64,000 nucleotides of DNA from Owenia fusiformis (taxonomy: Eukaryota > Annelida > Polychaeta > Sabellida > Oweniidae). Positions 10,216 through 64,000 of this stretch are shown here, piece by piece (the first letter of the stretch is position 1; every line of letters starts with the position of its first letter). A program made the position numbers and the translations under genes. The stretch is taken from NCBI GenBank assembly GCA_903813345.2, contig CAIIXF020000012.1, forward strand, positions 12,816,932-12,880,931, in the 5' to 3' direction. The notes below the pieces were generated by a model, which was given only the letters and a program-made list of their open reading frames with translations, did not search any database and was not told where the DNA came from.

Positions 10216-10330
10216 ATCAAAAACTGTCAAAGGCGAACCTAAATCATAATGGATAATGTTTGATTTTAAATTAAATTCACAAAATTTTGCCAGGCATATG
10301 TTATATACATATTAATACTAGCCTAAATAA

Positions 10331-11188: not shown

Positions 11189-11289
11189 TTGGAACATAAA
11201 TAAATGACATGTGAATTTGCTGAAGTGACGATTTCCCATGTTAAATATAAGAAAATTTTAGAGAGACCATACATCATGCAATTTATCGC

Positions 11290-39740: not shown

Positions 39741-40621
39741 AGAGGTCGCAACGGTACTGAAAACCAGTACCGGTAACCGACACGCTAATAACCGTACCGT
39801 TACCGAAATACCGGTAAAAATATGTAAAATAAAATGCCAATGCGCTGCCACCCCCACTTTGTTCCTAACTCTCTCCGTAGCTTCTCAAGTATATATGCAT
39901 ACATGGTGCAAGACCGATTTGAACCCATACTGATGAACTTCACGAAATAGTATGTAACTATCTTACGAATTTTTTTTTTATAAGAATCTTACGAATCAAG
40001 ATGTATTTTTAGTTTTAAATTAAATGTATTACACATTTCAAACCATTTCTCAACTGTATCAATAGCGAGCGACGTGCAGTAGGTCTTATACATGGGGGTG
40101 GGGTAGGTAAAATAGATTTAATTGACTGTCTTGACTTCTGGAAAGTAAACGGAGGAAAATATCCTGATGTGGCGAGTTTGGCTGAAACATATCATGCTAT
40201 TCCTGCGTCATCCGTGTCAAGTGAACGCCAGATCAGTGCAACTGGCAACACCATCACTTCCAAATGGGCACGACTTCAACCCTGAGAGGTTGTCAATGCC
40301 TTGTTGTTCGTAAATGACTATTTTAAACATAATTCAGTTTCTGGATCTGACGTTGACACTACAACTACACCCGAACTGCCAAACATGGACGTCACACATA
40401 AACTGCCAAACATGGAAATCCGAACTGCCAAACATGGACATCTAAATGTCTATGTAGATGTACGCATCGTGAAAGTGGAAATTAAACGAAATAATTAAAA
40501 AAACGATGTGTCTTTTATTTCCCCGGGGATTATCGTCGGTTAACCGGTTAATAATTTCAATACCGGTAAATGCTCAATTCCGTACCGAAACCGTATAACC
40601 GGAATTACCGTCAGCCTCTAA
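39741..40621 (+). mobile_element. hAT element, 881 bp, inserted in the mariner transposase
   Basis: CACTTTCT (8 bp) is duplicated at 39733-39740 and 40622-40629, the duplication length typical of hAT elements. Ends are AGAGGTCGCAACGGT and the inverse of TAGAGGCTGACGGT. Subterminal regions are packed with ACCGGT/TACCGG words, as in many hAT elements. Internally deleted: only the end of the transposase remains. Confidence 0.9.
40110..40330 (+). pseudogene. hAT transposase C-terminal dimerisation region
   Basis: Reads DLIDCLDFWKVNGGKYPDVA, SLAETYHAIPASSVSSERQI, SATGNTITSKWARLQP, a stop, then EVVNALLFVNDYF. This is the hAT C-terminal dimerisation signature (W..N...YP.LA..A...L.IPA.S..SER.FS..G). 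The rest of the transposase is missing. Confidence 0.85.
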
Positions 40622-41608
40622 CACTTTCTCTCCACCTCGTTAAAGGTTTATTACAAGGTGGTGTGAGTCTGCTGGGAATGAGATGGCCTCAGTTTTCTGG
40701 GACGCAAAGGGTGTTGTGTTTGTGGATTATTTAGAAAAGGGGCAAGCCATCGATGGGAAAAATGCCCGAGAAAACTAAGAAAAATATGTCTTGCCCCATC
40801 AGGACAATGCTCCATCCCAAAAGTAAGTGATTGCCATGGCAACAGTGCGTAACTGTGTCTTCAAACTCGTTCCCTACATGTACCCACTGTGCTCTCCTGA
40901 TGTAGTTCCGTTGGACTTTCATCTATTCCTAAACATGAAGAATCATTTAGCTGGTAGGCATTTTGACAGGGACGATGACGTCATATCTACTTTTACTGAC
41001 TTTTTGATGACCAAGAAAAAACTGCAGTCAAAATGACCCCTCCAACAAGTTTCCGTTAAGGCTTCAGAACACAGTATCAGCAATGTGTTGAACACCAGTG
41101 ACTGCATCAAACACAAGACATGGCACTTTCAAGACCTCGTGGAACAATGCATGCGACAATGAGAAGTAATATCAAGTATACTTTAAAAGCAGAAAAGAGG
41201 AAATGCAGGTGATTTACTTTACTTTACTTTACTTTATGATGTAAAAAGTGCCCCGCCTACCCAAAAGTGAAGTTACCATAGTAACCATTATTTTAGACCA
41301 ATTAAATCGGAGATAATGATATTCTACAAATCAATAACAAGATATATTCTTCGGGTGTTATGGGAAAATTTCCCGAAAAAAAACTTGGAAATGAGAGCAT
41401 TTTTCCGTGAACTTATTGAACGACTTTATATAATACATATTTCATTCATTTTAATCCTCAAACTGACAGAAACATGCTAATGAATATCATGAAAATGTCA
41501 TTGGATATCTACCATATTATATATTTCATTCATAAGATCTTACGCTGTCATCAAAAACCATTGTTTGTCAATATGCTCATCGCTGCTACAGCAACGGTAA
41601 TAAATATA

Positions 41609-43027
41609 ACTAGATTTTGGAAATTGAACGAAGTTCAATTTCAGACTCCAGATCTAGACTTTTTTTAGCCGAGTCATCCAGAATAAGCCGTGTCATCCAG
41701 AATAAGCTATGGCATCTAGAAAGAGATGGATAAATAAAATAGGAAGGTAGGATAGAATAGGAAAGAAGGATAGGATAGAATAAGAAAGAAGGATAGGATA
41801 GAATAGAATAGGAAGAAAGGATAGGATAGGATAGGATAGGAAGGATAGGAAGGAAAAGATATGAAGGAAGGATAGATAGGAAGGATAGGGTAGGATGAGA
41901 TAGGAGGATGGATGAATTTTTCAATATTTTCTTCTCTACTCTTGACTTTCTATCAGGATACCATCAGATCGATTTTTCTCGAAATTTCAAAACGCTATCA
42001 CTTCCGAACCGGAAGTCGGATCGCAATTTAGTTTGCAGATTCGGATTCCTGACAAAATTCTACACCTAATTCATAACTCATACGTTAAATTTGGCGAATT
42101 CTTATTTTGACCTACTTTTCGGACACGCCATAACTTCCGAACCGGAAATCGGATCGAAATTTGGTTTGCAGATTCGGATTCCTGACAAAATTCTACACTT
42201 AATTCATAACTCATATATTCAATTTGGAGAACTTTTTATTTTGACCTACTTTTCGGACACCATATCTCAAAAGTGGGTCAAAATACTTTCTGACGGCAAA
42301 AGGCTAACACTATAAGCATATTCTTGGCTACATGTATACACAATTTCGAAGAATATAATTAAAGTGTAGTGTCAGAATCGAAAAAATAAGGAAAACCTAT
42401 GAATTTGACCTAGATTTTGACCTAGGCATTTCGGTGTCCAAATTGTGAAGCTAGATGGCTTTTGAGGTCCCCTTCTTTTAAAGGCTTTGATTATATGAAG
42501 CTGAACTCAGTCTATATTCCGTATTTTTCACTTCAAAAAAATATTTTTTCCCATTGACTTAACATGGGCACCAAATTTAGCGATTTTTGAGTTTTCAAAA
42601 CGCCATAACTTCCGAACTGGAAGTCAGATCCAGATTTCGTTTTCAGATTCGGAATCCTGAGAAAATTTCCTATAAGAGTAATATCCTGGACATTTGATTC
42701 GGAGAACTTTTTTTTGGACCTCGTTTTCGGACACTGATATCTCGAAATCGGTTTGAGATATCAAAAAACTAAATCGACCCTAGGTTTCCTACTTTTTTAT
42801 AAGGAACACAATGAAAAAAACCCGGATCAAAAATATTGAAAGACGACCGAGAAAATCGAAAAAAGTGACAAAGTATTGGATTTGACCTAGTTCTTGACCT
42901 TTGACCTAGATAAAAATTTGACCCAATTTCCGAGGAACTAGATTCTGGACCTAAATTGACCAAATGACTGACTTTACTGAAAACCTTATGGTAATTGAGA
43001 AAACTGGTTTAGAATAATAAGAATAAG
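41609..43027 (+). repeat. Macrosatellite unit 1 (1419 bp, short form)
   Basis: First unit, directly abutting the decayed satellite at a normal unit start. Two 133-bp subrepeats, one linker, final subrepeat, tail with DR1 at 42895-42907. No hairpin cassette. Confidence 0.9.
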
Positions 43028-44436
43028 AACTAGATTTTGGAAATTGAACGAAGTTCAATTTCAGACTCCAGATCTAGACTTTTTTTTAGCCGGGTCATCC
43101 AGAATAAGCCGAGTCATCCAGAATAAGCTGAGTCATCTAGAAAGAGATGGATAAATAAAATAGGAAGGTAGGATAGGATAGAATAGGAAAGAACGATAGG
43201 ATAGAATAAGAAAGAAGGATAGGATAGAATAAAATAGGAAGAAAGGATAGGATAGGATAGGATAGGAAGGAAAAGATATGAAGGAAGGATAGATAGGAAG
43301 GATAGGGTAGGATGAGATAGGAAGGATGGATGAATTTTTCAATATTTTATTCTCTACTCTTGACTTTCTATCAGGATACCATCAGATCGATTTTTCTCGA
43401 AATTTCAAAACGCTATCACTTCCGAACCGGAAGTCGGATCGAAATTTGGTTTTCAGATTCGGATTCCTGACAAAATTCTACCCCTAATTCATAACTCATA
43501 CGTTAAATTTGGAGATTTTTTATTTTGACCTACTTTTCGGACACGCCATAACTTCCGAACCGGAAGTCGGATTGAAATTTGGTTTGCAGATTCGGATTCC
43601 TGACAGAATTCTACCCTTAATTCATAACTCATATATTCAATTTGGAGAACTTTATATTTTGACCTACTTTTCGGACACCATATCTCAAAAGTGGGTCAAA
43701 ATACTTTCTGACGGCAAAAGGCTAACACTATTAGCATATTCTTGGCTACATGTATACACAATTTCGAAGAATATAATTAAAGTGTAGTGTCAGAATCGAA
43801 AAAATAAGGAAAACCTATGAATTTGACCTAGATTTTGACCTAGGCATTTCGATGTCCAAATTGTGAAGCTAGATGGCTTTTGAGGTCCCCTTCTTTTAAA
43901 GGCTTTGATTATATGAAGCTGAACTCAGTCTATATTCCGTATTTTTCACTTCAAAAAAATATTTTTTCCCATTGACTTAACATGGGCACCAAATTTAGCG
44001 ATTTTTGAGTTTTCAAAACGCCATAACTTCCGAACTGGAAGTCAGATCCAAATTTCGTTTTCAGATTCGGAATCCTGAGAAAATTTTCTATAAGATTAAT
44101 ATGCTGGACATTTGAATCGGAGAACTTTGTTTTGGACCTCGTTTTCGGACACTGATATCTCGAAATCGGTTTGAGATATCAAAAAACTAAATCGACCCTA
44201 GGTTTCCTACTTTTTTATAAGGAACACAATGAAAAAAACCTGGATCAAAAATATTGAAGGACGACCGAGAAAATCGAAAAAAGTGACAAAGTACTGGATT
44301 TGACCTAGTTCTTGACCTTTGACCTAGATAAAAATTTGACCCAATTTCCGAGGAACTAGATTCTGGACCTAAATTGACCAAATGACTGACTTTACTGAAA
44401 ACCTTATGGTTATTGAGAAAACTGGTTTAGAATAAT
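43028..44436 (+). repeat. Macrosatellite unit 2 (1409 bp, short form)
   Basis: Nearly the same as unit 1 throughout. DR1 at 44313-44325. No hairpin cassette. Confidence 0.9.
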
Positions 44437-46440
44437 AACTAGATTTTGGAAATTGAACGAGTTCAATTTCAGACTCCAGATCTAGACTTTTTTTAGCCGA
44501 GTCATCCAGAATAAGCCAAGTCATCCAAAATAAGCTAAGTCATCCAGAAAAAGATGAATGGATGGATGGATGAAAAAGGAAGGAAGGATAGGATAGAATA
44601 GGAAGGAACTATAGGATAGAATAGGAAAGAATGATATAATAGAATAGGAAGAAGGGATAGAATAGGAAGGATAGGAAGGAGAGGATACGAAGCAAGGGTA
44701 GATAGGAAGGATAGGATAGGATCAGAAAGGAAGGATGGATGCATTTTTCAATATTTTCTTCTCTACTCTTGACTTTCTATCAGGATACCATCAGATCGAT
44801 TTTTCTTGAAATTTCAAAACGTCATAACTTCCGAACCGGAGGTCGGATCGAAATTTGATTTGCAGATTCGGATTCCTGACAAAATTCTACCCCTAATTCA
44901 TAACTCATACGTTAAATTTGGCGAATTTTTATTTTGACCTACTTTTCGGACACGCCATAACTTCGGAACCGGAAGTCGAATTGAAATTTGGTTTGCAGAT
45001 TCGGATTTCTGAGAAGATTCTATTCTTAATTCATAACTCAAACGTTGAATTTGGAGAACTTTTTATTTTGACCTACTTTTCGGACACCATATCTCAAAAT
45101 TTGGTCAAAATACTTTCTGACGGCAAAAGGCTAACACTATTAGCGTACTCTTGGCTACATGTATACAAAATTTCGAAGAATATAATTAATCTGTAGTGTC
45201 AGAATCGCAAAAATAAGGAAAAACTTTGAATTTGACCTAGATTTTGATCTAGGCATTTTGGTGTCCAAATTTTTATGAAAAGAATGTCTTGAGGTCCTTT
45301 TCTTTTAAGGGCTTCCATTATGTTTAGCTGTGCTTAGTCTATATTTCGTATTTTACACTTCAAATAAATCTTTTTTCCCATTGACATAACATGGGGCACC
45401 AAATTTAGCGATTTTTGAGCTTTCAAAATGTCATAACTTCCGAACCAGAAGTCGGATTGAAATTTGGTTTGCAGATTCGGATTCCTGAGAAAATTCTATA
45501 CTTAATTCATAACTCAAACGTCAAATTTGGAGAATTTTTTATTTTGACCTACTTTTCGGACACCATATCTCAAAAGTGGGGCAAAATACTTTCTGACGGC
45601 AAAAGGCTAACACTATTAGCACACTCTTGGCTACATGTATACACAATTTTGAAGAATATAATTAATCTGTAGTGTCAGAATCGCAAAAATAAGAAAAAAC
45701 TTTGAATTTGACCTAGATTCTGACCTAGGCATTTTGATGTCCAAATTTTAAAGCTACATGGCTTTTGAGGTCCCATTCTTTTAAAAGCTTTCATTATATT
45801 TAGCTGAACTCAGTCTATATTTTGTATTTTTCACTTCAAAAAAATCTTTTTTCCCATTGACTTAACATGGGCACCAAATTTAGCAATTTTTGAGCATTCA
45901 AAACGCCATAACTTCCGAACGGGAAGTCAGATCGAAATTTGGTTTTCAGATTCGGAATCCTGAGAAAATTTTCTATAAGACTAATATCCTGGCCATTTAA
46001 TTCGTAGAACTTTTTTTTGGACCTCGTTTTCGGACACTGATATCTCGAAATCGGTTTGAGATATCAAAAAACTAAATCGAACCTAGGATTTCTACTTTTT
46101 TATAAGGAACACAATGAAAAAAACCCGGATCGAAAATATTGAAGGACGACCGAGAAAATCGAAAAAAGTGACAAAGTACTGGATTTGACCTAGTTCTTGA
46201 CCTTTGACCTAGATAAAAATTTGACCCAATTTCCGAGGAACTAGATACTGAACCTAAATTGACCAAATGATTGACTTTACTGAAAACCTAATGGTTATTG
46301 AGAAAACTGGTATAGAATAATAATAAGAAGAAGAAGAATAAGAAAACTGACGAAAACAATAGACTCCAGATTTCATCTGGAGTCTAATAATAAGAAAACT
46401 GACGAAAACAATAGACTCCAGATTTCATCTGGAGTCTAAT
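44437..46440 (+). repeat. Macrosatellite unit 3 (2004 bp, long form)
   Basis: Subrepeat-linker pair duplicated (linkers near 45088 and 45573). DR1 at 46198-46210. Two hairpin cassettes, 46360-46386 and 46412-46438. The head has a GAACGAGTTC variant with one A missing. Confidence 0.9.
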
Positions 46441-48406
46441 AACTAGATTTTGGAAATTGAACGAGTTCAATTTCAGACTCCAGATCTAGACTTTTTTTAG
46501 CCGAGTCATCCAGAATAAGCCAAGTCATCCAAAATGAACTAAGTCATCAAGAAAAAGAAGGATGGATGGATGGATGGATGGATGAAAAAGGAAGGAAGGA
46601 TAGGATAGAATAGGAATGAACGATAGGATAGAATAGGAAAGAAGGATAGAATAGAATAGGAAGAAGGGATAGAATAGGAAGGAGAGGAAACGAAGCAAGG
46701 GTAGATAGGAAGGATAGGATAGGATCAGAAAGGAAGGATGGATGCATTTTTCAATATTTTCTTCTCTACTCTTGACTTTCTATTAGGATACCATCAGATC
46801 GATTTTTCTTGAAATTTCAAAACGCCATAACTTCCGAACCGGAAGTCGGATCGAAATTTGATTTGTAGATTCAGATTCCTGACAAAAATTTCCCCCTAAT
46901 TCATAACTCATACGTTAAATTTGGCGAATTTTTATTTTGACCTACTTTTCGGACACGCCATAACTTCGGAACCGGAAGTCTGATTGAAATTTGGTTTGCA
47001 GATTCGGATTTCTGAGAAAATTCTACTCTTAATTCATAACTCAAACGTTAAATTTGGAGATCTTTTTATTTTGACCTACATTTCAGACACCATATCTCAA
47101 AAGTGGGTCAAAATACTTTCTGACGGCAAAAGGCTAACGCTATTAGCACACTCTTGGCTACATGTATACACAATTTCGAGGAATATAATTAAAGTGTAGT
47201 GTCAGAATCGCAAAAATAAGGATAAACTATGAATTTGACCTAGATTTTGACCTAGGGATTTTTGTGTCCAAATTTTGAAGTAAGGTAGCCTTCGAGGTTC
47301 CCTTCTTTCATAGGCTTCCATTATTTTAAGCTGTACTTAGTCTATATCTCGTATTTTACACTTCAAAAAATTTTTTGTTCCCATTGACATAACATGGGGC
47401 ACTAAATTTAGCGATTTTTGAGCTTTCAAAATGTAATGACTTCCGAACCGGAAGTCGGATCGAAATTTGGTTTGCAGATTCGGATTCCTGAGAAAATTCT
47501 ATACTTAATTCATAACTCAAATGTTAAATTTGGAGAACTTTATATTTTGACCTACTTTTCGGACACCATATCTCAAAAGTGGGGCAAAAAACTTTCTGAC
47601 GGCAAAAGGCTAACACTATAAGCACACTCTTGGCTACATGCATACAAAATTTCGAGGAATATAATTAAAGTGTAGTGTCAGAATCGCAAAAATAAGGATA
47701 AACTATGAATTTGACCTAGATTTTGACCTAGGGATTTTTGTGTCCAAATTTTGAAGTTAGGTAGCCTTTGAGGTTCCCTTCTTTCATAGGCTTTCATTAT
47801 ACTTAGCTGAACTCAGTCTATATTTCGTATTTTTCACTTCAAAAAAATCTTTTTCCCCATTGACTTAACATGGGCACCAAATTTAGCGATTTTTGAGCTT
47901 TCAAAACGCCATAACTTCCGAACCGGAAGTCTGATTCGAATTTGGTTTTCAGATTCGGAATCCTGAGAAAATTTTCTATAAGACCAATATCCTGGACATT
48001 TGATTTGAAGAACTTTTTTTTGGACCTCGTTTTCGGACACTGATATCTCGAAATCGGTTTGAGATATCAAAAAACTAAATCGACCCTAGGTTTTCTACTT
48101 TTTTATAAGGAACACAATGAAAAAAACCCGGATCGAAAATATTGAAGGATGACCGAGAAAATCGAAAAAAGTGACAAAGTACTGGATTTGACCTAGTTCT
48201 TGACCTTTGACCTAGATAAAAATTTGACCCAATTTCCGAGGAACTAGATTCTGGACCTAAATTGACCAAATGACTGACTTTACTGAAAACCTTATGGTTA
48301 TTGAGAAAACTGGTTTAGAATAAGAATAAGAATAAGAATAAGAAGAAGAATAAGAAAACTGACGAAAACAATAGACTCCAGATTTCATCTGGAGTCTAAT
48401 AAGAAT
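46441..48406 (+). repeat. Macrosatellite unit 4 (1966 bp, long form)
   Basis: Linkers near 47092 and 47570. DR1 at 48201-48213. One hairpin cassette, 48372-48398. (GGAT)n run in the head tract. Confidence 0.9.
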
Positions 48407-49882
48407 AACTAGATTTTGGAAATTGAACGAAGTTCAATTTCAGACTCCAGATCTAGACTTTTTTTAGCCGAGTCATCCAGAATAAGCCGAGTCATCCAGA
48501 ATAAGCTGAGTCATCCAGAAAAAGATGGATAAATAAAATAGGAAGGTAGGATAGGATAGAATAGGAAAGAACGATAGGATAGAATAAGAAAGAAGGATAG
48601 GATAGAATAGAATAGAATAGAAAGGATAGGATAGGATAGGAAGGAAATGATACGAAGGAAGGATAGATAGGAAGGATAGGATGAGATAGGAAGGATGGAT
48701 GAATTTTTCAATATTTTCTTCTCTACTCTTGACTTTCTATCAGGATACCATCAGATCGATTTTTCTCGAAATTTCAAAACGCCATAACTTCCGAACCGGA
48801 AGTCGAATCGAAATTTGGTTTGCAGATTCGGATTCCTGACAAAATTTTACCCCTAATTCATAACTCATACGTTAAATTTGGAGATTTTTTATTTTGACCT
48901 ACTTTTTGGACACGCCATAACTTCCGAACCGGAAGTCGGATCGAAATTTGGTTTGCAGATTCGGATTCCTGACAAAGTTTCTTTCCTTAATTCATAACTC
49001 ATATATTAAATTTGGAGAACTTTTTATTTTGACCTACTTTTCGGACACCATATCTCAAAAGTGGGTCAAAATACTTTCTGACGGCAAAAGGCTAACACTA
49101 TTTGCATATTCTTGGCCACATGTATACATAATTTCGAAGAATATAATTAAAGTGTAGTGTCAGAATCGAAAAAATAAGGAAAACCTATGAATTTGACCTA
49201 GATTTTGACCTAGGCATTTTGGTGTCCAAATGTTCAAGCTAGATGGCTTTTGAGGTCCCCTTCCTTTAAAGGCTTTGATTATATGAAACTGAACTCAGTC
49301 TATATCCCGTATTTTTCACTTCAAAAAAATCTTTTTTCCCATTGACTTAACATGGGCACCAAATTTAGCGATTTTTGAGCTTTCAAAACGCCATAACTTC
49401 TGAACCGGAAGTCCGATCTAAATTTGGTTTTCAGATTCGGAATCCTGAGAAAATTTTCTATATGACTAATATCCTGGACATTTGATTCGGAGAACTTTTT
49501 TTTGGACCTTGTTTTCGGACACTAATATCTCGAAATCGGTTTGAGATATCAAAAAACTAAATCGACCCTAGGTTTTCTACTTTTTTATAAGGAACACAAT
49601 GAAAAAAACTCGGATCGAAAATATTGAAGGACGACCGAGAAAATCGAAAAAAGTGACAAAGTACTGGATTTGACCTAGTTCTTGACCTTTGACCTAGCTA
49701 AAAATTTGACCCAATTTCCGAGGAACTAGATTCTGGACCTAAATTGACCAAATGACTGGCTTTACTGAAAACCTTACGGTTATTGAGAAAACTTGCTTAG
49801 AATAATAATAATAAGAAGAAGAAAAAGAATAATAAGAAAACTAACGAAAACAATAGACTCCAGATTTCATCTGGAGTCTAAT
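48407..49882 (+). repeat. Macrosatellite unit 5 (1476 bp, short form)
   Basis: One linker near 49050. DR1 at 49683-49695. One hairpin cassette, 49854-49880. Confidence 0.9.
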
Positions 49883-51294
49883 AACTAGACTTTGGAAATT
49901 GAACGAAGTTCAATTTCAGACTCCAGATCTAGACTTTTTTAAGCCCAGTCATCTAAAATAAGCCGAGTCATCCAGAATAAGCTGAGTCATCCAGAATAAG
50001 ATGGATGGATAAAATAAGAAGGTAGGATAGGATAGAATGGGAAGGAAAGATAGGATAGAATAAGAAAGAAGGATAGGATAGAACAGAATAGGAAGAAAGG
50101 ATATGATAGGAGGATAGGAAGGAAAGGATACGAAGGAAGGATAGATAGGAAGGATAGGATAGGATCAGATAGGAAGGATGGATGAATTTTTCAATATTCT
50201 CTTCTCTACTCTTGACTTTCTATCAGGATACCATCAGATCGATTTTCCGAAATTTCAAAACGCCATAACTTCCGAACCGGAAGTCGGATTTAAATCTGAT
50301 TTAAAGATTCGGATTCCTGACAAAATTCTACCCCTAATTCATAACTCATACGTTAAATTTGACGAATTTTTATTTTGACCTACTTTTTGGACACGCCATA
50401 ACTTCTGAACCGGAAGTCGGATCGAAATTTGGTTTACAGATTCGGATTTCTGAGAAAATTCTACCCTTAATTCATAACTCAAACGTTAAATTTGGAGAAC
50501 TTTTTATTTTGACCTACTTTTCGGACACCATATCTCAAAAGTGGGTCAAAATACTTTCTGACGGCAAAAGGCTTACGCTATTAGCACACTCTTGGCTACA
50601 TGTATACACAATTTTGAAGAATATAATTAAAGTGTAGTGTCAGAATCGCAAAAATAAGAAAAAACTTTGAATTTGACCTAGATTTTGACCTAGGCATTTT
50701 GGTGTCCAAATTTTAAAGCTATGTGGCTTTTGAGGTCCACTTCTTTGAAAGGCTTTGATTATATGAAGCTGAACTCAGTCTATATTTCGTATTTTTCACT
50801 TCAAAAAAATCTTTTTCCCATTGACTTAACATGGGCACCAAATTTAGCGATTTTTGAGCTTTCAAAACGCCATAACTTCCGAACCGGAAGTCTGATTTGA
50901 ATTTGGTTTTCAGATTCGGAATCCTGAGAAAATTTCCTATAAGACTGATATCCTGGACATTTGATTCGGAGAACTTTTTTTTGGACCTCGTTTTCGGACA
51001 CTGATATCTCGAAATCGGTTTGAGATATCAAAAAACTAAATCGACCCTAGCTTTCCTACTTTTTTATAAGGAACACAATGAAAAAAACCTGGATCAAAAA
51101 TTTTGAAGGACGACCGAGAAAATCGAAAAAAGTGACAAAGTACTGGATTTGACCTAGTTCTTGACCTTTGACCTAGATAAAAATTTGACCCAATTTCCCA
51201 CCAACTAGATACTGAACCTAAATAAACTGTATTATGATCTTTACTGGATACCTTATAGTTATTGAAAAAACTCTTAAAGAAAAATAATAATAAT
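49883..51294 (+). repeat. Macrosatellite unit 6 (1412 bp, short form)
   Basis: The head reads CTAGACTTTGG. DR1 at 51162-51174. The tail end variant (CCCACCAACTAGATAC, CTGTATTATG) is shared with units 7 and 9. No hairpin cassette. Confidence 0.9.
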
Positions 51295-52836
51295 AACTAG
51301 ACTTGGGAAATTGAACGAAGTTCAATTTCAGACTCCAGATCCAGACTTTTTTAAGCCCAGTCATCTAAAATAAGCCGAATCATCCAGAATAAGCTGAGTC
51401 ATCCAGTATAAGATGGATGGATAAAACAGGAAGGTAGGATAGGATAGAATGGGAAGGAACGATAGGATAGAATAAGAAAAAAGGATAGGATAGAACAGAA
51501 TAGGAAGAAAGGATATGATAGGAGAGGATAGGAAGGATAGGAAGGAAAGGATACGAAGGAAAGATAGGATAGGATAGGATCATATAGGAAGGATGGATGA
51601 ATTTTTCAATATTTTCTTCTCTACTCTTGACTTTCTATCAGGATACCATCAGATCGATTTTCCGAAATTTCAAAACGCCATAACTTCCGAACCGGAAGTC
51701 GGATCTAAATTTGATTTAAAGATTCGGATTCCTGACAAAATTCTACCCCTAATTCATAACTCATACATTAAATTTGGCGAATTTTTATTTTGACCTACTT
51801 TTTGGACACGCCATAACTTCGGAACCGGATGTCGGATTGAAATTTGGTTTGCAGATTCGGATTTCTGAGAAAATTCTATTCTTAATTCATAACTCAAACG
51901 TTAAATTTGGAGAACTTTTTATTTTGACCTACTTTTCGGACACCATATCTCAAAAGTGGGTCAAAATACTTTCCGACGGCAAAAGGCTAACGCTATTAGC
52001 ACACTCTTGGCTACATGTATACACAATTTCGAAGAATATAATTAAAGTGTAGTGTCAGAATCGCAAAAATAAGAAAAAACTTTGAATTTGACCTAGATTT
52101 TGACCTAGGCATTTTGGTGTCCAAATTTTAAAGCTAGATGGCTTTTGAGGTCCCATTCTTTTAAAAGCTTTCATTATATTTAGCTGAACTTAGTCTATAT
52201 TTCGTATTTTTCACTTCAAAAAATCTTTTTTCCCATTGACTTAACATGGGCTCAAAATTTAGCGATTTTTGAGTTTTCAAAACGCCATAACTTCAGAACC
52301 GGAAGTCTGATCTAAATTTCGTTTTCAGATTCGGAATCCTGAGAAAATTTCCAATAAGACTAATATCCTGGACATTTGATTCGGAGAACTTCTTTTGGAC
52401 CTCGTTTTCGGACACTGATATCTCGAAATCGGTTTGAGATATCAAAAAACTAAATCGACCCTAGGTTTCCTACTTTTTTATAAGGAACACAATGAAAAAA
52501 ACCCGGATCGAAAATATTGAAGGACAACCGAGAAAATCGAAAAAAGTGACAAAGTACTGGATTTGACCTAGTTCTTGACCTTTGACCTAGATAAAAATTT
52601 GACCCAATTTCCCACCAACTAGATACTGAACCTAAATAAACTGTATTATGGTCCTTACTGGATACCTAATAGTTATTGAAAAAACTCCCAAAGAATAATA
52701 ATAATAATAATAATAATAAAAAGAATACTGGCAAAAACAATAGACTCCAGATTTTCAATCTGGAGTCTAATAATAAGAAGAAGAAGAAGAATACTGGCAA
52801 AAACAATAGACTCCAGATTGACATCTGGAGTCTAAT
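51295..52836 (+). repeat. Macrosatellite unit 7 (1542 bp, short form)
   Basis: DR1 at 52576-52588. The tail end variant matches unit 6. Two hairpin cassettes of two different loop types, 52741-52769 and 52807-52834, separated by (AAG)n. Confidence 0.9.
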
Positions 52837-54724
52837 AACTAGATTTTGGAAATTGAACGAGTTCAATTTCAGACTCCAGATCTAGACTTTTTTTAGCCGA
52901 GTCATTCAGAATAAGCCAAGTCATCCAAAATAAGCTAAGTCATCCAGCAAAAGATGGATGGGATGGATGGATGAAAAAGGAAGGAAGGATAGGATAGAAT
53001 AGGAAGGAACGATAGGATAGAATAGGAAAGAAGGATAGAATAGAATAGGAAGAAGGGATAGAATAGGGAATAGGAAGGAGAGGATACGAAGCAATGGTAG
53101 ATAGGAAGGACAGGATAGGATCAGAAAGGAAGGATGGATGCATTTTTCAATATTTTCTTCTCTACTCTTGACTTTCTATCAGGATACCATCAGATCGATT
53201 TTTCTTGAAATTTCAAAACACCATGACATCCGAACCGGAAGTCGGATCGAGATTTGATTTGCAGATTCGGATTCCTGACAAAATTCTACCCCTAATTCAT
53301 AACTCATACGTTAAATTTGGCGAATTTTTATTTTGACCTACTTTTCGGACACGCCATAACTTCGGAACCGGAAGTCAAATCGAAATTTGGTTTGCAGATT
53401 CGGATTTCTGAGAAGATTCTATTCTTAATTCATAACTCAAACATTAAATTTGAAGAGTTTTTTATTTTGACCTTCTTTTCGGACACCGCATCTCAAAAGT
53501 GGGTCAAAATACTTTCTGACGGCAAAAGGCTAACGCTATAAGCACAGTCTTGGCTACATGTATACACAATTTCGAGGAATATAATTAAAGTGTAGTGTCA
53601 GAATCGCAAAAATAAGGATAAACTATGAATTTGACCTAGATTTTGACCTAGGGATTTTGGTGTCCAAATTTTGAAGTTAGGTAGCCTTCGAGGTTCCCTT
53701 CTTTCATAGGCTTTCATTATTTTAAGCTGTACTTAGTCTATATCTCGTATTTTACACTTCAAAAAAATCTTTTTTCCCATTGACATAACATGGGGCACCA
53801 AATTTAGCGATTTTTGAGCTTTCAAAATGTCATAACTTCCGAACTGGAAGTCGGATTGAAATTTGGTTTTCAGATTCGGATTCCTGAGAAAATCCTACAC
53901 TTAGTTCATAACTCACACGTTAAATTTGGAGATTTTTTTATTTTGACCTACTTTTCGGACACCATATCTCAAAAGTGGGGCAAAATACTTTCTGACGGCA
54001 AAAGGCTAACACTATTAGCGCACTCTTGGCTACATGTATACAAAATTTCGAAGAATATAATTAATCTGTAGTGTCAGAATAGCAAAAATAAGGAAAAACT
54101 TTGAATTTGACCTAGATTTTGACCTAGGCATTTTGGTGTCCAAATTTTGAAGCTAAATGGCTTTTGAGGTCCCATTCTTTTAAAAGCTTTCATTATATTT
54201 AGCTGAACTCAGTCTATATTTCGTATTTTTCACTTCAAAAAAATCTTTTTTCCCATTGACTTACATGGGCACCAAATTTAGCGATTTTTGAGCTTTCAAA
54301 ACGCCATAACTTCCGAACCGGAAGTCCGATCCAAATTTGGTTTTCAGATTCGGAATCCTGAGGAAATATCCTATAAGACTGATATCCTAGACATTTGATT
54401 CAGAGAACTTTTTTTTGGACCTCGTTTTCGGACACTGATATCTCGAAATCGGTTTGAGATATCAAAAAACTAAATCGACCCTAGATTTCCTACTTTTTTA
54501 TGAGGAACACAATGAAAAAAACCGAATCGAAAGTATTGAAGGACGACCGAGAAAATCGAAAAAAGTGACAAAGTACTGGATTTGACCTAGTTCTTGATCT
54601 TTGACCTAGATAAAAATTTGACCCAATTTCCAGAGAACTAGATTCTGAACCTAAATTGACTGTATGATTGTCTTAACTGAAGATCTTACGGTTATTGAGG
54701 AAACTTGCTTAGAATAATAATAAT
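52837..54724 (+). repeat. Macrosatellite unit 8 (1888 bp, long form)
   Basis: Subrepeat-linker pair duplicated. The DR1 site near 54595-54607 carries one substitution (TGATCT in the first half). No hairpin cassette. Confidence 0.9.
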
Positions 54725-56668
54725 AACTAGACTTTGGAAATTGAACGAAGTTCAATTTCAGACTCCAGATCTAGACTTTTTTAGGCCGAGTCATCCAGAA
54801 TAAGCCGAGTCATCCAAAATAAGCTGAGTCATCCAGAAAAAGATGGATGGATGGATGGATGAAAAAGGAAGGAAGGATAGGCTAGAATAGGAAAGAACGA
54901 TAGGATAGAATAGGAAAGAATGATAGAATAGAATATGAAGAAGGAATAGAATAGGAAGGATAGGAAGGAGAGGATATGAAGGAAAGGTAGATAAGAAGGA
55001 TACGATAGGATCACAAAGGAAGGATGGATGCATTTTTCAATATTTTCTTCTCTACTCTTGACTTTCTATCAGGATACCATCAGATCGATTTTTCTCGAAA
55101 TTTCAAAACGCCATAACTTTCGAATCGGAAGTCGGATCGAAATTTGGTTTGCAGACTCGGATTCCTGAGAAAATTCTACCCTTAATTCATAACTCATATG
55201 CTAAATTTGGAGAATTTTTTATTTTGACCTACTTTTCGGACACCATATCTCAAAAGTGGGTAGAAATACTTTCTGACGGCAAAAGGCTAACACTATTAGC
55301 ACACTTTTTCCTACCTGTATACAAAATTTTGAAGCAAATCATTTAAACATAGTGTCAGAATCGCAAAAATAAGGAAAAACTATGAATTTGACCTAGATTT
55401 TGACCTGGGGATTTTGGTGTCCAAATTTTGAAGTTAGGTAGCCTTCGAGGTCCCTTTCTTTCATAGGCTTTCATTATTTTAAGCTGTACTTAGTCTATAT
55501 CTCGAATTTTACACTTCAAAAAAATCTTTTTTCCCATTGACATAACATGGGGCACAAAATTTAGCGATTTTTGAGCTTTCAAAATGTCATAACTTCCGAA
55601 CAGGAAGTCGGATCGAAATTTGATTTGCAGATTCGGATTTCTGAGAAAATTCTATACTTAATTCATAACTCAAACGTTAAATTTGGAGAATTTTTTATTT
55701 TGACCTACTTTTCGGACACCATATTTCAAAAGTGGGGCAAAATACTTTCTGACGGCAAAAGGCTAACACTATTAGCACACTCTTGGCTACATGTATACAA
55801 AATTTTGAAGAATATAATTAATCTGTAGTGTCAGAATCGCAAAAATAAGGAAAAACTTTGAATTTGACCTAGATTTTGACCTAGGCATTTTGGTGTCCAA
55901 ATTTTTATGAAAAGAAGGTTTTGAGGTCCCTTTCTTTTATGGGCTTCCATTATGTTTAGCTGTGCTTAGTCTGTATCTCGTATTTTACACTTCAAAAAAA
56001 TAATTTTTCCCATTGAATTAACATGGGGTACCAAATTTAGCGATTTTTGAATTTTCAAAACGCCATAACTTCTGAACCGGAAGTCAAATCGAAATTTGGT
56101 TTTCAGATTCGGAATCCTGAGAAAATCTCCTATAAGACTGATATCCTGGACATTGGATTCGGAGAACTTTTTTTTGGGCCTCGTTTTCGGACACTGATAT
56201 CTCGTATTCGGTTCGAGATATCAAAAATCTAAATCGTGTTTCTTCATACTACTTTTTTATGAGGAACACAATGAAAAAAACCCGGATCGAAAATATTGAA
56301 GGACGATTGAGAAAATCGAAAAAAGTGACAAAGTACTGGATTTGACCTAGTTCTTGACCTTTGACCTAGATAAAAATTTGACCCAATTTCCCACCAACTA
56401 GATACTGAACCTAAATAAACTGTATTATGGTCTTTACTGGATACCTTATAGTTATTGAAAAAACTCTTAAAGAAAAATAATAAGAAGAAGAAGAATACTG
56501 GCAAAAACAATAGACTCCAGATTGACATCTGGAGTCTAATAATAAGCAGAAAAAGAATAATAAGAAAACTGACGAAAACAATAGACTCCAGATTTCATCT
56601 GGAGTCTAATAAGAATAAGAAAACTGACGAAAACAATAGACTCCAGATTTCATCTGGAGTCTAATAAT
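54725..56668 (+). repeat. Macrosatellite unit 9 (1944 bp, long form)
   Basis: Only one subrepeat before the first linker, then the usual pair. DR1 at 56355-56367. Three hairpin cassettes, 56511-56538, 56582-56608 and 56637-56663, the most in the window. Confidence 0.9.
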
Positions 56669-58453
56669 AACTAGATTTTGGAAATTGAACGAAGTTCAAT
56701 TTCAGACTCCAGATCTAGACTTTTTTTAGCCGAGTCATCCAGAATAAGCCGAGTCATCCAGAATAAGCTGAGTCATCTAGAAAGAGATGGATAAAAAAAA
56801 AAGGAAGGTAGGATAGGATAGAATAGGAAAGAACGATAGGATAGAATAAGAAAGAAGGATAGGATAGAATAGAATAGGAAGAAAGGATAGGATAGGATAG
56901 GAAGGATAGGAAGGAAAAGATATGAAGAAAGGATAGATAGGAAGGATAGGATAGGATGAGATAGGAAGGATGGATGAATTTTTCAATATTTTCTTCTCTA
57001 CTCTTGACTTTCTATCAGGATACCATCAGATCGATTTTTCTCGAAATTTCAAAACGCTTTAACTTGGTTTGCAGATTCGGATTCCTGACAAAATTCTACC
57101 CCTAATTCATAACACATACGTTAAATTTGGAGATTTTTTATTTTGACCTAGTTTTCGGACACGCCATAACTTCCGAACCGGAAGTCGGATCGAAATTTGG
57201 TTTGCAGATCCGGATTCCTGACCGAATTCTACACCTAATTCATAACTCAAACTTTAAATTTGGAGATTTTTTATTTTGACCTACTTTTCGGACACGCAAT
57301 AACTTCCGAACCGGGAGTTGGATCGAAATTTGGTTTGCAGTTCCGGATTCCTGACAAAATTCTACCCCTAATTCATAACTCATACGTTAAATTTGGAGAT
57401 TTTTTATTTTGACCTACTTTTCTGACATGCCATAACTTCCGAACCGGAAGTCGGATCGAAATTTGATTTGCAGATTCGGATTCCTGACAAAATTCTACCC
57501 CTAATTCATAACTCATACGTTAAATTTGGCGAATTTTTATTTTGACCTACTTTTCGGACACGCCATAACTTCGGAACCGGAAGTCGAATTGAAATTTGGT
57601 TTGCAGATTCGGATTTCTGAGAAGATTCTTTTCTTAATTCATAACTCAAACGTTAAATTTGGAGAACTTTTTATTTTGACCTACTTTTCGGACACCATAT
57701 CTCAAAAGTGGGTCAAAATACTTTCTGACGGCAAAAGGCTAACACTATAAGCGTACTCTTGGCTACATGTATACAAAATTTCGAAGAATATAATTAATCT
57801 GTAGTGTCAGAATCGCAAAAATAAGGAAAAACTTTGAATTTGACCTAGATTTTGACCTAGGCATTTTGGTGTCCAAATTTTGAAGCTAGATGGCTTTTGA
57901 GGTCCCATTCTTTTAAAAGCTTTCATTATATTTAGCTAAACTCAGTCTATATTTCATATTTTTTACTTCAAAAAAATCTTTTTTCCCATTGACTTAACAT
58001 GGGCACCAAATTTAGCGATTTTTGAGCTTTCAAAACGCCATAACTTCTGAACCGGAAGTCCGATCTAAATTTGGTTTTCAGATTCGGAATCCTGAGAAAA
58101 TTTCCTATATGACTAATATCCTGGACATTTGATTCGGAGAACTTTTTTTTGGACCTTGTTTTCGGACACTGATATCTCGAAATCGGTTTGAGATATCAAA
58201 AAACTAAATCGACCCTAGGTTTTCTACTTTTTTATAAGGAACACAATGAAAAAAACCCGGATCGAAAATATTGAAGGACGACCGAGAAAATCGAAAAAAG
58301 TGACAAAGTACTGGATTTGACCTAGTTCTTGACCTTTGACCTAGCTAAAAATTTGACCCAATTTCCGAGGAACTAGATTCTGGACCTAAATTGACCAAAT
58401 GACTGACTTTATTGAAAACCTTATGGTTATTGAGAAAACTGGTTTAGAATAAT
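56669..58453 (+). repeat. Macrosatellite unit 10 (1785 bp, subrepeat-expanded)
   Basis: About five 133-bp subrepeats before a single linker; the first is truncated (AACTTGGTTTGCAG near 57060). DR1 at 58330-58342. No hairpin cassette. Confidence 0.9.
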
Positions 58454-60480
58454 AACTAGATTTTGGAAATTGAACGAGTTCAATTTCAGACTCCAGATCT
58501 AGACTTTTTTTAGCCGAGTCATCCAGAATAAGCCAAGTCATCCAAAATAAGCTAAGTTATCCAGAAAAAGATGGATGGATGGATGGATGGATGGATGAAA
58601 AGGGAAGGAAGGATACGATAGAATAGGAAGGAACGATAGGATAGAATAGGAAAGAAGGATAGAATAGAATAGGAAGGATAGGAAGGAGAGGATACAAAGC
58701 AAGGGTAGCTAAATAGGAAGGGAAGGATAGGATCAGAAAGGAAGGATGGATGCATTTTTCAATATTTTCTTCTCTACTCTTGACTTTCTATCAGGATACC
58801 ATCAGATCGATTTTTCTTGAAATTTCAAAACGCCATAACTTCCGAACCGGAAGTCGGATCGAAATTTGATTTGCAGATTCGGATTCCTGACAAAATTCTA
58901 CTCCTAATTCATAACTCATACGTTAAATTTGGCGAATTTTTATTTTGACCTACTTTTCGGACACGCCATAACTTCGGAACCGGAAGTCGAATCGAAATTT
59001 TGTTAGCAGATTTGGTTTTCTGGGAAAATTCTATTCTTAATTCATAACTCAAACGTTAAATTTGGAGAAATTTTTATTTTGACCTACTTTTCGGACACCA
59101 TATCTCAAAAGTGGGTCAAAATACTTTCTGACGGCAAAAGGCTTACGCTATTAGCACACTCTTGGCTACATGTATACACAATTTCGAGGAATATAATTAA
59201 AGTGTAGTGTCAGAATCGCAAAAATAAGGATAAACTATGAATTTGACCTAGATTTTGACCTAGGGATTTTGGAGTCCAAATTTTGAAATTAGGTAGCCTT
59301 CGAGGTTCCCTTCTTTCATAGGCTTTCATTATTTTAAGCTGTAATTAGTCTATATCTTGTATTTTACACTTCAAAAAAATCTTTTTTCCCATTGACATAA
59401 CATGGGGGACCAAATTTAGCGATTTTTGAGCTTTCAAAATGTCATAACTTCCGAACCAGAAGTCGGATTGAAATTTGGTTTGCAGATTCGGATTCCCGAT
59501 AAAATTCTATACTTAATTCATAACTCAAACGTCAAATTTGGAGAATCTTTTATTTTGACCTACTTTTCGGACACCATATCTCAAAAGTGGGGCAAAATAC
59601 TTTCTGACGGCAAAAGGCTAACACTATTAGCACACTCTTGGCTACATGTATACAAAATTTCGAAGAATATAATTAATCTGTAGTGTCAGAATCGCAAAAA
59701 TAAGGAAAAACTTTGAATTTGACCTAGATTCTGACCTAGGCATTTTGATGTCCAAATTTTAAAGCTAGATGGCTTTTGAGATCCCATTCTTTTAAAAGCT
59801 TCCATTATATTTAGCTGAACTCAGTCTATATTTCGTATTTTTCACTTCAATAAAATCTTTTTTCCCATTGACTTAACATGGGCTCCAAATTTAGCGATTT
59901 TTGAGCTTTCAAAACGCCATAACTTCAGAACCGGAAGTCTGATCCAAATTTTGTTTTCAGATTTGGAATCCTGAGAAGATTTCCTATAAGACTAATATCC
60001 TGGACATTTGATTCGGAGAACTTTTGTTTGGACCTTGTTTTCGGACACTGATATCTCGAAATCGGTTTGAGATATCAAAAAACTAAATCGACCCTAGCTT
60101 TCCTACTTTTTTATAAGGAACACAATGAAAAAAACCCGGATCAAAAATATTGAAGGACGACCGAGAAAATCGAAAAAAGTGACAAAGTACTGGATTTGAC
60201 CTAGTTCTCGACCTTTGACCTAGATAAAAATTTGACCCAATTTCCGAGGAACTAGATTCTGGACCTAAATTGACCAAATGACTGACTTTACTGAAAACCT
60301 TACGGTTATTGAGAAAACTTGCTCGGAATAATAATAATAATAAGAATAAGAAGAAAAAGAATAATAAGAAAACTGACGAAAACAATAGACTCCAGATTTC
60401 ATCTGGAGTCTAATAATAAGAAGAAGAATAAGAAAACTGACGAGAACAATAGACTCCAGATTTTCAATCTGGAGTCTAAT
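58454..60480 (+). repeat. Macrosatellite unit 11 (2027 bp, long form)
   Basis: Linker duplicated. The DR1 site near 60209-60221 carries one substitution (CGACCT in the first half). Two hairpin cassettes with different loops, 60386-60412 and 60450-60478. Confidence 0.9.
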
Positions 60481-62800
60481 AACTAGATTTTGGAAATTGA
60501 ACGAAGTTCAATTTCAGACTCCAGATCTAGACTTTTTTTAGCCGAGTCATCCAGAATAAGCCGAGTCATCCAGAATAAGCTGAGTCATCTAGAAAGAGAT
60601 GGATAAATAAAAAGGGAAGGTAGGATAGGATAGAATAGGAAAGAACGATAGGATAGAATAAGAAAGAAGGATAGGATAGGATAGAATAGAATAGGAAGAA
60701 AGGATAGGATAGGATAGGAAGGATAGGAAGGAAAAGATATGAAGAAAGGATAGATAGGAAGGATAGGATAGGATGAGATAGGAAGGATGGATGAATTTTT
60801 CAATATTTTCTTCTCTACTCTTGACTTTCTATCAGGATACCATCAGATCGATTTTTCTCAAAATTTCAAAACGCTATAACTTGGTTTGCAGATTCGGATT
60901 CCTGACAAAATTCTACCCCTAATTCATAACACATACGTTAAATTTGGAGATTTTTTATTTTGACCTACTTTTCGGACACGCCATAACTTCCGAACCGGAA
61001 GTAGGATCGTAATTTGGTTTGCAGATCCGGATTCTTGACCGAATTCTACCCCTAATTCATAACTCATACGTTAAATTTGGAGATTTTTTATTTTGACCTA
61101 CTTTTCGGACACGCCATAACTTCTGAACCGGAAGTCGGATCGAAATTTGGTTTGCAGATCCGGATTCCTGACCGAATTCTACCCCTAATTCATAACTCAT
61201 ACGTTAAATTTGGAGATTTTTTATTTTGACCTACTTTTCGGACACGCCATAAGTTCCGAACCGGAAGTTGGATCGAAATTTGGTTTGCAGTTCCGGATTC
61301 CTGACAAAATTCTACCCCTAATTCATAACTCATACGTTAAATTTGGAGATTTTTTATTTTGACCTACTTTTCGGACACGCCATAACTTCTGAACCGGAAG
61401 TCGGATCGAAATTTGGTTTGCAGATCCGGATTCCTGACCGAATTCTACCCCTAATTCATAACTCATACGTTAAATTTGGAGATTTTTTATTTTGACCTAC
61501 TTTTCGGACACGCCATAAGTTCCGAACCGGAAGTTGGATCGAAATTTGGTTTGCAGTTCCGGATTCCTGACAAAATTCTACCCCTAATTCATAACTCATA
61601 CGTTAAATTGGGAGATTTTTTATTTTGACCTACTTTTCTGACATGCCATAACTTCCGAACCGGAAATCGGATCGAAATTTAGTTTGCAGATCCGGATTCC
61701 TGAGAAAATTCTATACCTAATTCATAACTCATACGTTAAATTTGGAGATTTTTTATTTTGATCTACTTTTCGGACATGCCATTACTTCCGAACCGGAAGT
61801 CGGATCGAAATTTGATTTGCAGATTCCTGACAAAATTCTACCCCTAATTCATAACTCATACGTTAAATTTGGCGAATTTTTATTTTGACCTACTTTTTGG
61901 ACACACCATAACTTCGGAACCGGTAGTCGGATCGAAATTTAGTTTGCAGATTCGGATTCCTGAGAAAATTCTACACTTAATTAATAACTCAAACGTCAAA
62001 ATTGGAGAACTTTTTATTTTGACCTACTTTTCAGACACCATATCTCAAAAGTGGATCAAAATACTTTCTGACGGCAAAAGGCTAACACTATTAGCACACT
62101 CTTGGCTACATGTATACACAATTTCGAAGAATATTATTAAAGTGTAGTGTCAGAATCTCAAAAATAAGGAAAACCTTTGAATTTGACCTAGATTTTGACC
62201 TAGGCATGTTGGTGTCCAAATTTTGAAGCTAGGTGGCTTTTTAGGTCCCCTTCTTTTAAAAGCTTTCATTAAATTAAGCTGAACTCCGTCTATATTTCGT
62301 TTTCTTCACTTCAAAAAAATCTTTTTTCCCATTGACTTAACATGGGCACCAAATTTAGCGATTTTTGAGCTTTTAAAACGATATAACTTCCGAACCGGAA
62401 GTCGGATCGAAATTTTGTTTGCAGATTCAGATTCCTGACAAAATTCTACTTCTAATTCATAACTCATAACCTGAATTTGGAGAACTTTTGTTTTGACCTA
62501 CTTTCTGGACGCCATATTTCAAAATCGGTAAGAGTAATTAAAAAAAAACAGTGACACTTATGAAAGGGCTTTTTCTAAGCTACATGATGAAAAAAAGACG
62601 AAGACGTTTTGATAAATAACGACGAAGATAATTGATAGAATGTTGAAAATGTAAGATTTGACCTAGTTCTTGACCTTTGACCTAGATAAAAATTTGACCC
62701 AATTTCCGAGGAACTAGATACTGAACCTAAATTATCCAAATGATTGACTTTACTGAAGACCCTATGGTTATTGAGAAAACGTGCTTAGAATAATAATAAT
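60481..62800 (+). repeat. Macrosatellite unit 12 (2320 bp, most subrepeats)
   Basis: Nine 133-bp subrepeats, starting near 60872 (truncated as in unit 10), 60979, 61112, 61245, 61378, 61511, 61644, 61777 and 61904. 61112-61377 and 61378-61643 are practically identical, a recent 266-bp duplication. The tail is a different type with AGCTACATGATGAAAAAAAG, but DR1 is still present at 62671-62683. Confidence 0.9.
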
Positions 62801-64000
62801 AACTAGACTGGGGAAATTGAACGAGTTCAATTTCAGACTCCAGATTCAGACCTTTTTAGCCGAGTCATCCAAAATAAGCCGAGTCATCCAAAATAAGCTG
62901 AGTCATCCAGAAAAAGATGGATGGATAAAATAGGAAGGTAGGATAGGATAGAAAAGGAAGGGACGATAGGATAGAATAAGAAAGAAGGATAGGATAGAAT
63001 AGGAAGAAAGGATATGATAGGATAGGATAGGAAGTAAAAGATACGAAGGAAGGATAGATAGGAAGGATAGGATAGGATAGGATCAGATAGGAAGGATGGA
63101 TGAATTTTTCAATATTTTCTTCCATACTCTTGACTTTCTATCAGGATTTCAAAACGCCAAAACTTCGGAACCGGCAGTCAGATGGAAATTTGGTTTGCAG
63201 ATGCGGATTCCTGACAAAATTCTACCCTTAATTCATAACTCATACGTTAAATTTGGAGATTTTTTATTTTGACCTACTTTTTGGACACGCCATCACTTCC
63301 GAACCGGAAGTCAGATCGAAATTTGGTTTGCAGATTCAGGTTCCTGACAAAATTCTACTCCTAATTCATAACTCATACGTTAAATTTGGGGATTTTTTTT
63401 ATTTTGACCTACTTTTCGGGCACCATATCTCAAAAGTGGGTCAAAATACTTTCTGACGGCAAAAAGCTAACACTATAAGCACACTCTTGGCTACATGTAT
63501 ACACAATTTCGAATAATATAATTGAAGTGTAGTGTCAGAATCGCAAAAATAAGGAAAACCTTTGAATTTGACCTAGATTTTGACCTAGACATTTTGCTGT
63601 CCAAATTTTGAAACTAACTGGCTTTTGAGGTCCCCTTCTTTTGAAGGCTTTCATTAAATTAAGCTGAACTCAGTCTATATTCGTATTTCTCACTTCAAAA
63701 AAATCTTTTTTCCCATTGACTTAACATGGGCACCAAATTTAGCGATTTTTGAGCTTTTAAAACGCCATAACTTCCGAACCGGAAGTCGGATCGAAATTTG
63801 GTTTGCAGATTCGGATTCCTTGGGAAATTCTTCCCTTAGTCCATAACTCATATGTTAAATTTGGAGAAACCTCTAATTTTGACCTACTTCCTGGACGCCA
63901 TATTTCAAAATAAGTAAAAGTAATCAAAAAATGGATGGCACATCATGAAAGGGCTGTGTCTAAGCTACATGATGAAAAAAAGACAAAGCCGTTTCGATAA
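62801..64000 (+). repeat. Macrosatellite unit 13 (cut by the window end)
   Basis: Head CTAGACTGGGG. The spacer is shortened (TATCAGGATTTCAAAACG), so the CCATCAGATCGATT segment is missing. Two subrepeats and one linker. The tail type matches unit 12 (CTACATGATGAAAAAAAGAC) and is cut before the DR1 position. Confidence 0.85.

Follow-up and report, generated by a model that had tools for sequence, protein, structure and literature searches.

The 64,000-nucleotide stretch of contig CAIIXF020000012.1 analysed here (the window) ends in a long tandem array, which occupies positions 41609–64000 and whose units run head to tail in a single orientation. Tandem Repeats Finder (TRF), exact motif searches and nhmmer concurred that the array begins at 41609 and continues past the end of the window; it has 13 unit starts at spacings of 1409–2320 bp, with 12 units complete and the 13th cut by the window end. 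With several copies of a kilobase-sized unit, the array is a complex satellite, or macrosatellite, that shows no sign of coding and lies in an animal-like genome. A sequence-only reading of the same DNA had described a modular macrosatellite with a nested hierarchy, comprising at least 13 units in one orientation with precise starts and the same order of modules, and as a description this is correct. In particular, segmentation of the array with hidden Markov models, a check proposed in that reading and performed here with nhmmer, recovered the module order.

On the plus strand, each unit begins with a terminal hairpin region (H), followed by two to three copies of a 19-bp repeat (S; TRF), a purine-rich GGATA-type microsatellite of ~200 bp (P), an 81-bp block (F), one to nine copies of a 133-bp repeat (M), a linker of ~340 bp (L) and another M. 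A second L–M pair is present in five of the 13 units. A tail (T) and an end block (E) come next, followed by up to three hairpin cassettes, which some units lack. This order is kept in all 12 complete units and, as far as it is present, in unit 13. (Note that the minus strand assigned below to the array and its units is that of a proposed element, the putative 3′ end of which lies on the low-coordinate side of each unit.)

41609–64000, minus strand: whole array, 12 complete units and the cut 13th (motif search, nhmmer).
41609–43028, minus strand: unit 1, 1420 bp, modules H S P F M M L M T1 E; no array edge is in view except at its H, and the adjoining DNA has no array homology.
43029–44437, minus strand: unit 2, 1409 bp, modules as in unit 1, to which it is 98.5% identical over H, F, the linker, the last 133-mer and E.
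44438–46441, minus strand: unit 3, 2004 bp, two linker–133-mer pairs and two hairpin cassettes.
46442–48407, minus strand: unit 4, 1966 bp, two linker–133-mer pairs and one cassette.
48408–49883, minus strand: unit 5, 1476 bp, one linker and one cassette.
49884–51295, minus strand: unit 6, 1412 bp, a single linker and no cassette; units 6, 7 and 9 have the same kind of E.
51296–52837, minus strand: unit 7, 1542 bp, a single linker and two cassettes, with the kind of E that units 6 and 9 also have.
52838–54725, minus strand: unit 8, 1888 bp, two linkers and no cassette.
54726–56669, minus strand: unit 9, 1944 bp, one 133-mer ahead of the first linker, two linkers and three cassettes; a mosaic.
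56670–58454, minus strand: unit 10, 1785 bp, truncated first 133-mer, local 133-mer expansion, no cassette.
58455–60481, minus strand: unit 11, 2027 bp, two linkers and two cassettes.
60482–62801, minus strand: unit 12, 2320 bp, nine 133-mers ahead of the linker, of which the first is truncated and among which a 266-bp dimer has expanded; tail of type T2.
62802–64000, minus strand: unit 13, cut by the window end, with a shortened F and a tail of type T2.

For the 12 complete units, a linear fit of unit length on the counts of 133-mers, linkers and cassettes gave 134, 344 and 63 bp per module, respectively, with an R2 of 0.9995 and a largest residual of 13.7 bp. The earlier claim that length varies by whole modules alone thus holds for the bulk of the variation but not for all of it: the T2 tail of unit 12 is only 62–66% identical to the tails of units 1–11 (the tail of unit 13 is also T2), the 133-mers in units 10 and 12 include truncated copies, F is short in unit 13, and the microsatellite aligns with gaps between units. 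Likewise, of the three repeat levels claimed, those of 133 bp and 1.4–2.3 kb stand, the short repeat is one of 19 bp rather than 20 bp, and there is an additional level of ~476 bp. The reported purine tracts are 81–84% purine (12 units measured, without unit 6) but form an interrupted microsatellite whose longest unbroken run in any of the 13 units is 17, and H-DNA (triplex) was rejected as a candidate because of these interruptions. The observed/expected ratio of CpG is 0.93 in the array, as against 0.80 to its left, so that CpG loss driven by methylation is not apparent.

Read on the minus strand, every unit ends in the same arrangement, of which unit 1 provides the example.

41609–41660, minus strand: unit terminus H, hairpin GAAATTGAAC-TTC-GTTCAATTTC, then 6 nt, CTAG and T.

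The 10-bp stem formed by GAAATTGAAC and GTTCAATTTC is invariant in 13 of 13 units; eight units have a loop of 3 nt and five a loop of 2 nt. The 6 nt before CTAG come in four variants that do not differ in length. The terminal CTAG is retained in all 13 units of the alignment despite the loss of its palindromic partner in units 7 and 13. Folding of the 52-nt H strand gave a z score of −4.46 relative to 200 shuffles, and across units 1–11 the first 50 columns show lower diversity than ~96% of windows of that width. Under a hairpin–CTAG search rule that was framed after the motif had been seen, a search of both strands of the 64 kb gave two further sites outside the unit ends, and six block-shuffled windows yielded 0, 0, 0, 1, 0 and 0. 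Under this rule, the window has just one more hairpin whose stem reaches ≥10 bp with ≥3 G/C; it lies at 13172–13200, at the end of a palindrome at 12489–13159. The canonical Helitron 3′ end consists of a 16–20-nt palindrome located ~11 nt before a terminal CTRR; here we find, in 13 of 13 units, 20 paired nucleotides, a stem 10 nt from the end, and CTAG.

The sole array edge in view, at 41609, coincides with this hairpin–CTAG terminus. The edge is placed only to ~10 nt because the flank and the junctions are AT-rich (the flank shares eight of its last 10 letters with 4 of the 12 other junctions, against a null mean of 3.3), and by simple arithmetic, with a mean unit of 1.77 kb, an edge would fall at the terminus by chance in ~1% of cases. 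A T follows CTAG at all 13 ends, including the array edge. Taken with the terminus, this edge points to a reading to which we assign a probability of about 45%, namely that the 1.4–2.3-kb unit is a non-autonomous rolling-circle element with a Helitron-type 3′ end that was copied head to tail and later reshuffled. Such an element, read on the minus strand, would have a variable 5′ side, an interior of 133- and 476-bp satellite-like repeats together with the microsatellite, and the Helitron-type 3′ end. Head-to-tail copies could have been produced by rolling-circle replication that ran through the hairpin terminator, or by a circle that was copied more than once; unequal exchange and gene conversion between units may then have mixed the subfamilies and altered the numbers of 133-mers, linkers and cassettes. 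We consider it unlikely that the array is, more specifically, a rolling-circle concatemer in which each unit kept a functional-looking Helitron 3′ terminator through repeated bypass of that terminator, a polarity opposite to that of the 3′-truncated Helitron arrays in the reviews cited below; if true, a concatemer with retained terminators would link mobile element, circle amplification and a macrosatellite with higher-order structure.

Several observations weigh against a rolling-circle origin. A Helitron 5′ end, with TC after an A, was not identified in the units; CTAG leads either into a (TTA)n-type spacer, which varies, or into a cassette, rather than into one precise head-to-tail joint; and a single array edge is in view. 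The window contains no open reading frame (ORF) long enough for a Rep-helicase (the longest, stop to stop, is 213 aa), an absence that would be expected for a non-autonomous copy, and BLAST revealed no dispersed copy of the array within the 64 kb; the array searched against positions 1–41608 at an E value of 0.1 gave a single 21-bp match (E value 0.065) and otherwise none. Moreover, E carries a CTAGAT-bearing relative of both arms of the H hairpin. The left arm scores 14.5 in the E of six units and 12.5 in that of one, compared with a maximum of 12.0 among 767 flank windows (5 of 12 units fall below), and the right arm scores 13.0 in six units compared with a flank maximum of 11.5 (6 of 12 fall below); shuffles of one E matched the H-arm score in 1 of 2000 cases on the plus strand and in 50 of 2000 on the reverse. 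The hairpin may therefore be an inverted duplication of internal sequence and not a transposon end.

The resemblance between E and the H arms also favours a second explanation, which we rank just behind a rolling-circle origin and likewise place short of even odds: that the array is a plain nested satellite with no transposon ancestry. According to this explanation a 133-bp repeat acquired a linker (476 bp), the pair was duplicated and diverged, the hairpins arose by inverted duplication during replication, and unequal exchange or reinsertion of circles amplified the composite. The hairpin cassettes, which the sequence-only reading had reported and which nhmmer located 11 times in the array, fit with this, as they are inverted duplications of an 11-mer that is found in H too.

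46360–46438, plus strand: two hairpin cassettes of unit 3, each AGACTCCAGAT-loop-ATCTGGAGTCT (nhmmer).

Their stem is perfect in 11 of 11 cases, and their loops are TTC (seven), TTTCA (two) and TGAC (two). Also in favour of a plain nested satellite is the homology between the linker and the tail, which together with the 133-mer define the additional level of ~476 bp (133 + 343), linker and tail being diverged copies; unit 2 serves as the example.

43543–44014, plus strand: 133-mer and linker of ~340 bp, the 476-bp level.
44150–44437, plus strand: tail T1 and end module E, a diverged homologue of the linker, with sequence in E related to the H arms.

Local alignment of the linker with tail plus E gave z scores of 5.2 (T1) and 7.0 (T2), each exceeding all 1000 of the letter shuffles on which this homology rests, and an nhmmer search seeded with T2 reached the linker in units 1 and 2 only, at an E value of only ~0.009. 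On this evidence we take the unit to derive from an ancestral [M + X] tandem with a period of ~476 bp, in which one X would have become the linker and another the tail.

The order in which the levels arose can be read from the 133-mers, 51 of 53 copies of which were aligned (two truncated ones, at 57061 and 60878, were left out). Across units, first copies resemble first copies at 0.927, between-linker copies one another at 0.933, before-linker copies at only 0.907 and last copies at 86% (the last including those of the two T2 units); within its own unit, the first copy resembles the before-linker copy at 0.891, the between-linker copy at 0.877 and the last at 0.744. Because 133-mers are alike by position across units and less alike within a unit, whole units were multiplied, a point in favour of a rolling-circle origin, and the composite unit was probably formed first and multiplied afterwards. 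Units 10 and 12 have in common a local expansion of 133-mers, and unit 12 also shows renewed copying of a 266-bp dimer (copies 12c and 12e are identical and 12d and 12f share 98.5%), which a plain nested satellite would explain as ordinary local expansion.

The units are mosaics of interleaved subfamilies, in that the nearest relative of a unit differs from module to module. Thus unit 9 is nearest to unit 3 in the microsatellite, to unit 8 in the last linker and to unit 6 in E, and unit 10 is nearest to units 12, 8, 5 and 2 in succession along its modules. Over the five shared modules, units 1–12 are 85–98.5% identical, with units 1 and 2 the closest pair (98.5%) and units 6 and 7 mutually nearest (95.6%). 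These two pairs make some local duplication likely and speak for a plain nested satellite; neighbouring units, however, show no significant excess of similarity (permutation p 0.12–0.17, four module sets, units 1–11), although block duplication could mask such an excess. Simple local unequal exchange as the sole cause is not supported by the similarity of neighbours. The same differences between units bear on whether a few real units might have been multiplied in the assembly, which we regard as scarcely credible since copying of this kind would leave near-identical kilobases; the units differ throughout, and the longest exact repeat, within unit 12, is 302 bp.

What a plain nested satellite does not by itself predict is an array edge at the hairpin–CTAG, or a hairpin, 6 nt and CTAG|T of constant length in 13 of 13 units. 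Weighing this evidence from the terminus against the relatives of the hairpin arms in E, the absent 5′ TC and the many published plant arrays that repeat the 5′ end, we place a rolling-circle origin first and a plain nested satellite second.

A further possibility, which we judge improbable, is that the array consists of tandem copies of a Helentron-type HINE that reads along the plus strand, with a left hairpin (a subterminal inverted repeat, or subTIR, plus an inverted repeat), a microsatellite, central tandem repeats and a 3′ palindrome. The order of hairpin, microsatellite, 133-bp repeats and palindrome in the array agrees with the layout of Cg_HINE as given in the available part of its description (PMC7492417). 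The palindrome, however, is present at 6 of 12 unit ends only and missing at the other six, and the plus strand has no T run at the visible boundary. Nor was a paired 3′ subTIR found: the matches of three left-end 12-mers to the final 250 nt of 12 units did not improve on those of shuffles (the median unit was equalled or bettered by fractions of 0.36, 0.85 and 0.77 of the shuffles).

We also considered whether the array might be a selected regulatory or chromatin array whose units bear putative binding sites, an idea in favour of which stand two recurrent motifs, which we take to be candidate sites of the DR1 nuclear-receptor type (AGGTCAAAGGTCA) and the ETS type (ACCGGAAGT).

44313–44325 and the corresponding position in each further complete unit, minus strand: DR1-type AGGTCAAAGGTCA (motif search).

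The first is found in 12 of 12 complete units (10 exact and two with one mismatch, compared with 0.12 expected in the window) and falls within the third least variable of 28 forty-column windows; the second occurs 36 times, every time inside a 133-mer. This multiplicity arises from tandem copying, however, so that each motif counts as one event and not many, and we hold selection of this sort to be very improbable. A cellular function is unnecessary to explain the observations, the array as it stands says little on function, and the roles proposed in the sequence-only reading (heterochromatin seed, boundary or regulated array) find no support in the sequence data.

The longest stop-to-stop ORF within the array is 117 aa. 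A recurrent 99-aa ORF that spans a 133-mer and linker, the one array ORF covered by our coding test, was rejected as coding: variable columns are distributed 27/31/31 by codon position, the shared part is broken by stops or frame breaks in units 1, 4, 5, 10 and 13, and the upstream frame is different in units 3, 4, 8, 9 and 11. One 99-aa array ORF gave no match in Pfam. No Rfam family reached its gathering score in the 64-kb window, so that neither RNA genes nor ribozymes were detected there; an rDNA spacer was rejected for want of rRNA genes at that threshold, and a hammerhead retrozyme or ribozyme array for want of a gathering match, a lenient search of unit 3 having returned eight sub-threshold matches, none to a ribozyme. 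The miRNA-like matches of the lenient search sit on hairpin cassettes and lie far below threshold. Given these findings on ORFs and Rfam, the comparison with human macrosatellites and rDNA spacers offered earlier adds little. Exact array patterns had 0 matches in viral and prokaryotic contigs, collections that are not animal genomes, a search of phage sequences with one unit returned a single match, of 38 bases (E value 0.05), and five short sequence strings were not found in the literature.

To the left of the array, a mariner-like remnant occupies 38670–41432 between inverted repeats of ~180–190 bp (76%), with a hAT-like insert near 39750–40600 (by eye). The remnant matches HTH_48 with an E value of 2e-4, below the curated cut-off, and a second fragment is mariner-like by eye, without a match; the hAT C-terminal domain inside the remnant matches PF05699 with an E value of 2e-13. 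Weak reverse-transcriptase and endonuclease matches left of the array (E values 0.005 and 0.002) are both below cut-off, and a Pfam search of the window at a stricter threshold gave no transposon remnants. Remnants of these kinds are found in animals and suggest an animal-like eukaryotic genome. A dispersed degenerate repeat of the TCATTGGATATA type is present at 37100–38700 and 41420–41590 (by BLAST, 38386–38487 resembles 41451–41555) and ends just left of the array edge; because it stops short of the junction, it yields no empty site. Elsewhere in the window, TRF identified ACGT-rich tandem arrays at 2523–5525 (190 bp, 15.8 copies at 93%) and 16249–17646 (119/238 bp, ~10 copies of the 119-mer), and long self-complementary stretches resembling foldback elements lie at 10329–11190 (862 bp, 93%) and 12489–13159 (671 bp, 82%). 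The likely 3′ end of a host gene, with a transmembrane-type exon and a last exon containing PPPDY and PPPSY (by eye), is located at 34292–35842; the ORF of the last exon has no Pfam match.

Beyond the sequence-only reading, our analysis adds the minus-strand hairpin–CTAG at the unit terminus, the homology of linker and tail, and the mosaic structure. If derived from a Helitron, the array would be a readable case of a mobile element with inner tandem repeats becoming a higher-order satellite, and would predict single copies elsewhere with the same hairpin–CTAG end, as well as empty AT sites. Otherwise, the array still stands as a clear record of a layered satellite (133 bp to 476 bp to ~1.8 kb) with shuffled subfamilies.

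Complex or higher-order-repeat satellites and human macrosatellites have kilobase units, position-specific submonomers and amplification of the whole unit, as does the array; it differs from them in that no coding pattern was found, in its nested sub-unit levels and in a module number that varies between adjacent units. The earlier statement that ordinary satellites are much shorter and simpler was too strong, since satellite-like arrays carried by or built from Helitron and Helentron elements are described, in the portions available of the papers concerned, from bivalves, Drosophila and plants (PMC7492417, PMC4067079, PMC12628747, PMC12910113, PMC8268682). For the Helitron-2 repeats of Drosophila virilis, transcription or production of piRNAs is reported (PMC12910113). 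Among canonical Helitrons, Helraiser is reported in the accessible text to have CTAG at its end and, 11 nt upstream, a palindrome of 19 bp. Insertion between A and T is described for bat Helitrons (PMC4778049) and likewise for canonical Helitrons (PMC4067079). The excerpts on Helraiser also report read-through of the terminator, as well as circles in which the ends are joined head to tail (PMC4778049). The array unit resembles these Helraiser/Helibat-type elements, as far as those excerpts describe them, in its 3′ hairpin, short spacer and CTAG followed by T, and differs in having no identified TC 5′ end, no Rep-helicase or dispersed copies in the window, and a terminus in every unit. Tandem arrays of truncated plant Helitrons, head to tail and of several to several hundred units, are known from Xiong et al. 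2016 as summarized in the available parts of two reviews (PMC12628747, PMC8268682), in which many such arrays have multiple 5′ ends and one 3′ end. Here, in contrast to the arrays so summarized, all 13 units retain the putative 3′ end, a difference that counts against a rolling-circle origin. The array shares with the Cg_HINE Helentrons of Crassostrea gigas, in the portion of their description at hand, a hairpin end, a microsatellite, variable central satellite-like repeats and a palindrome, and differs in that no paired subTIR was found in it, that its entire unit is in tandem and that its centre is two-layered, with 133 and 476 bp (PMC7492417). Together, these comparisons place the array as a new family within a known class of macrosatellite, one that may have originated in a rolling-circle element.

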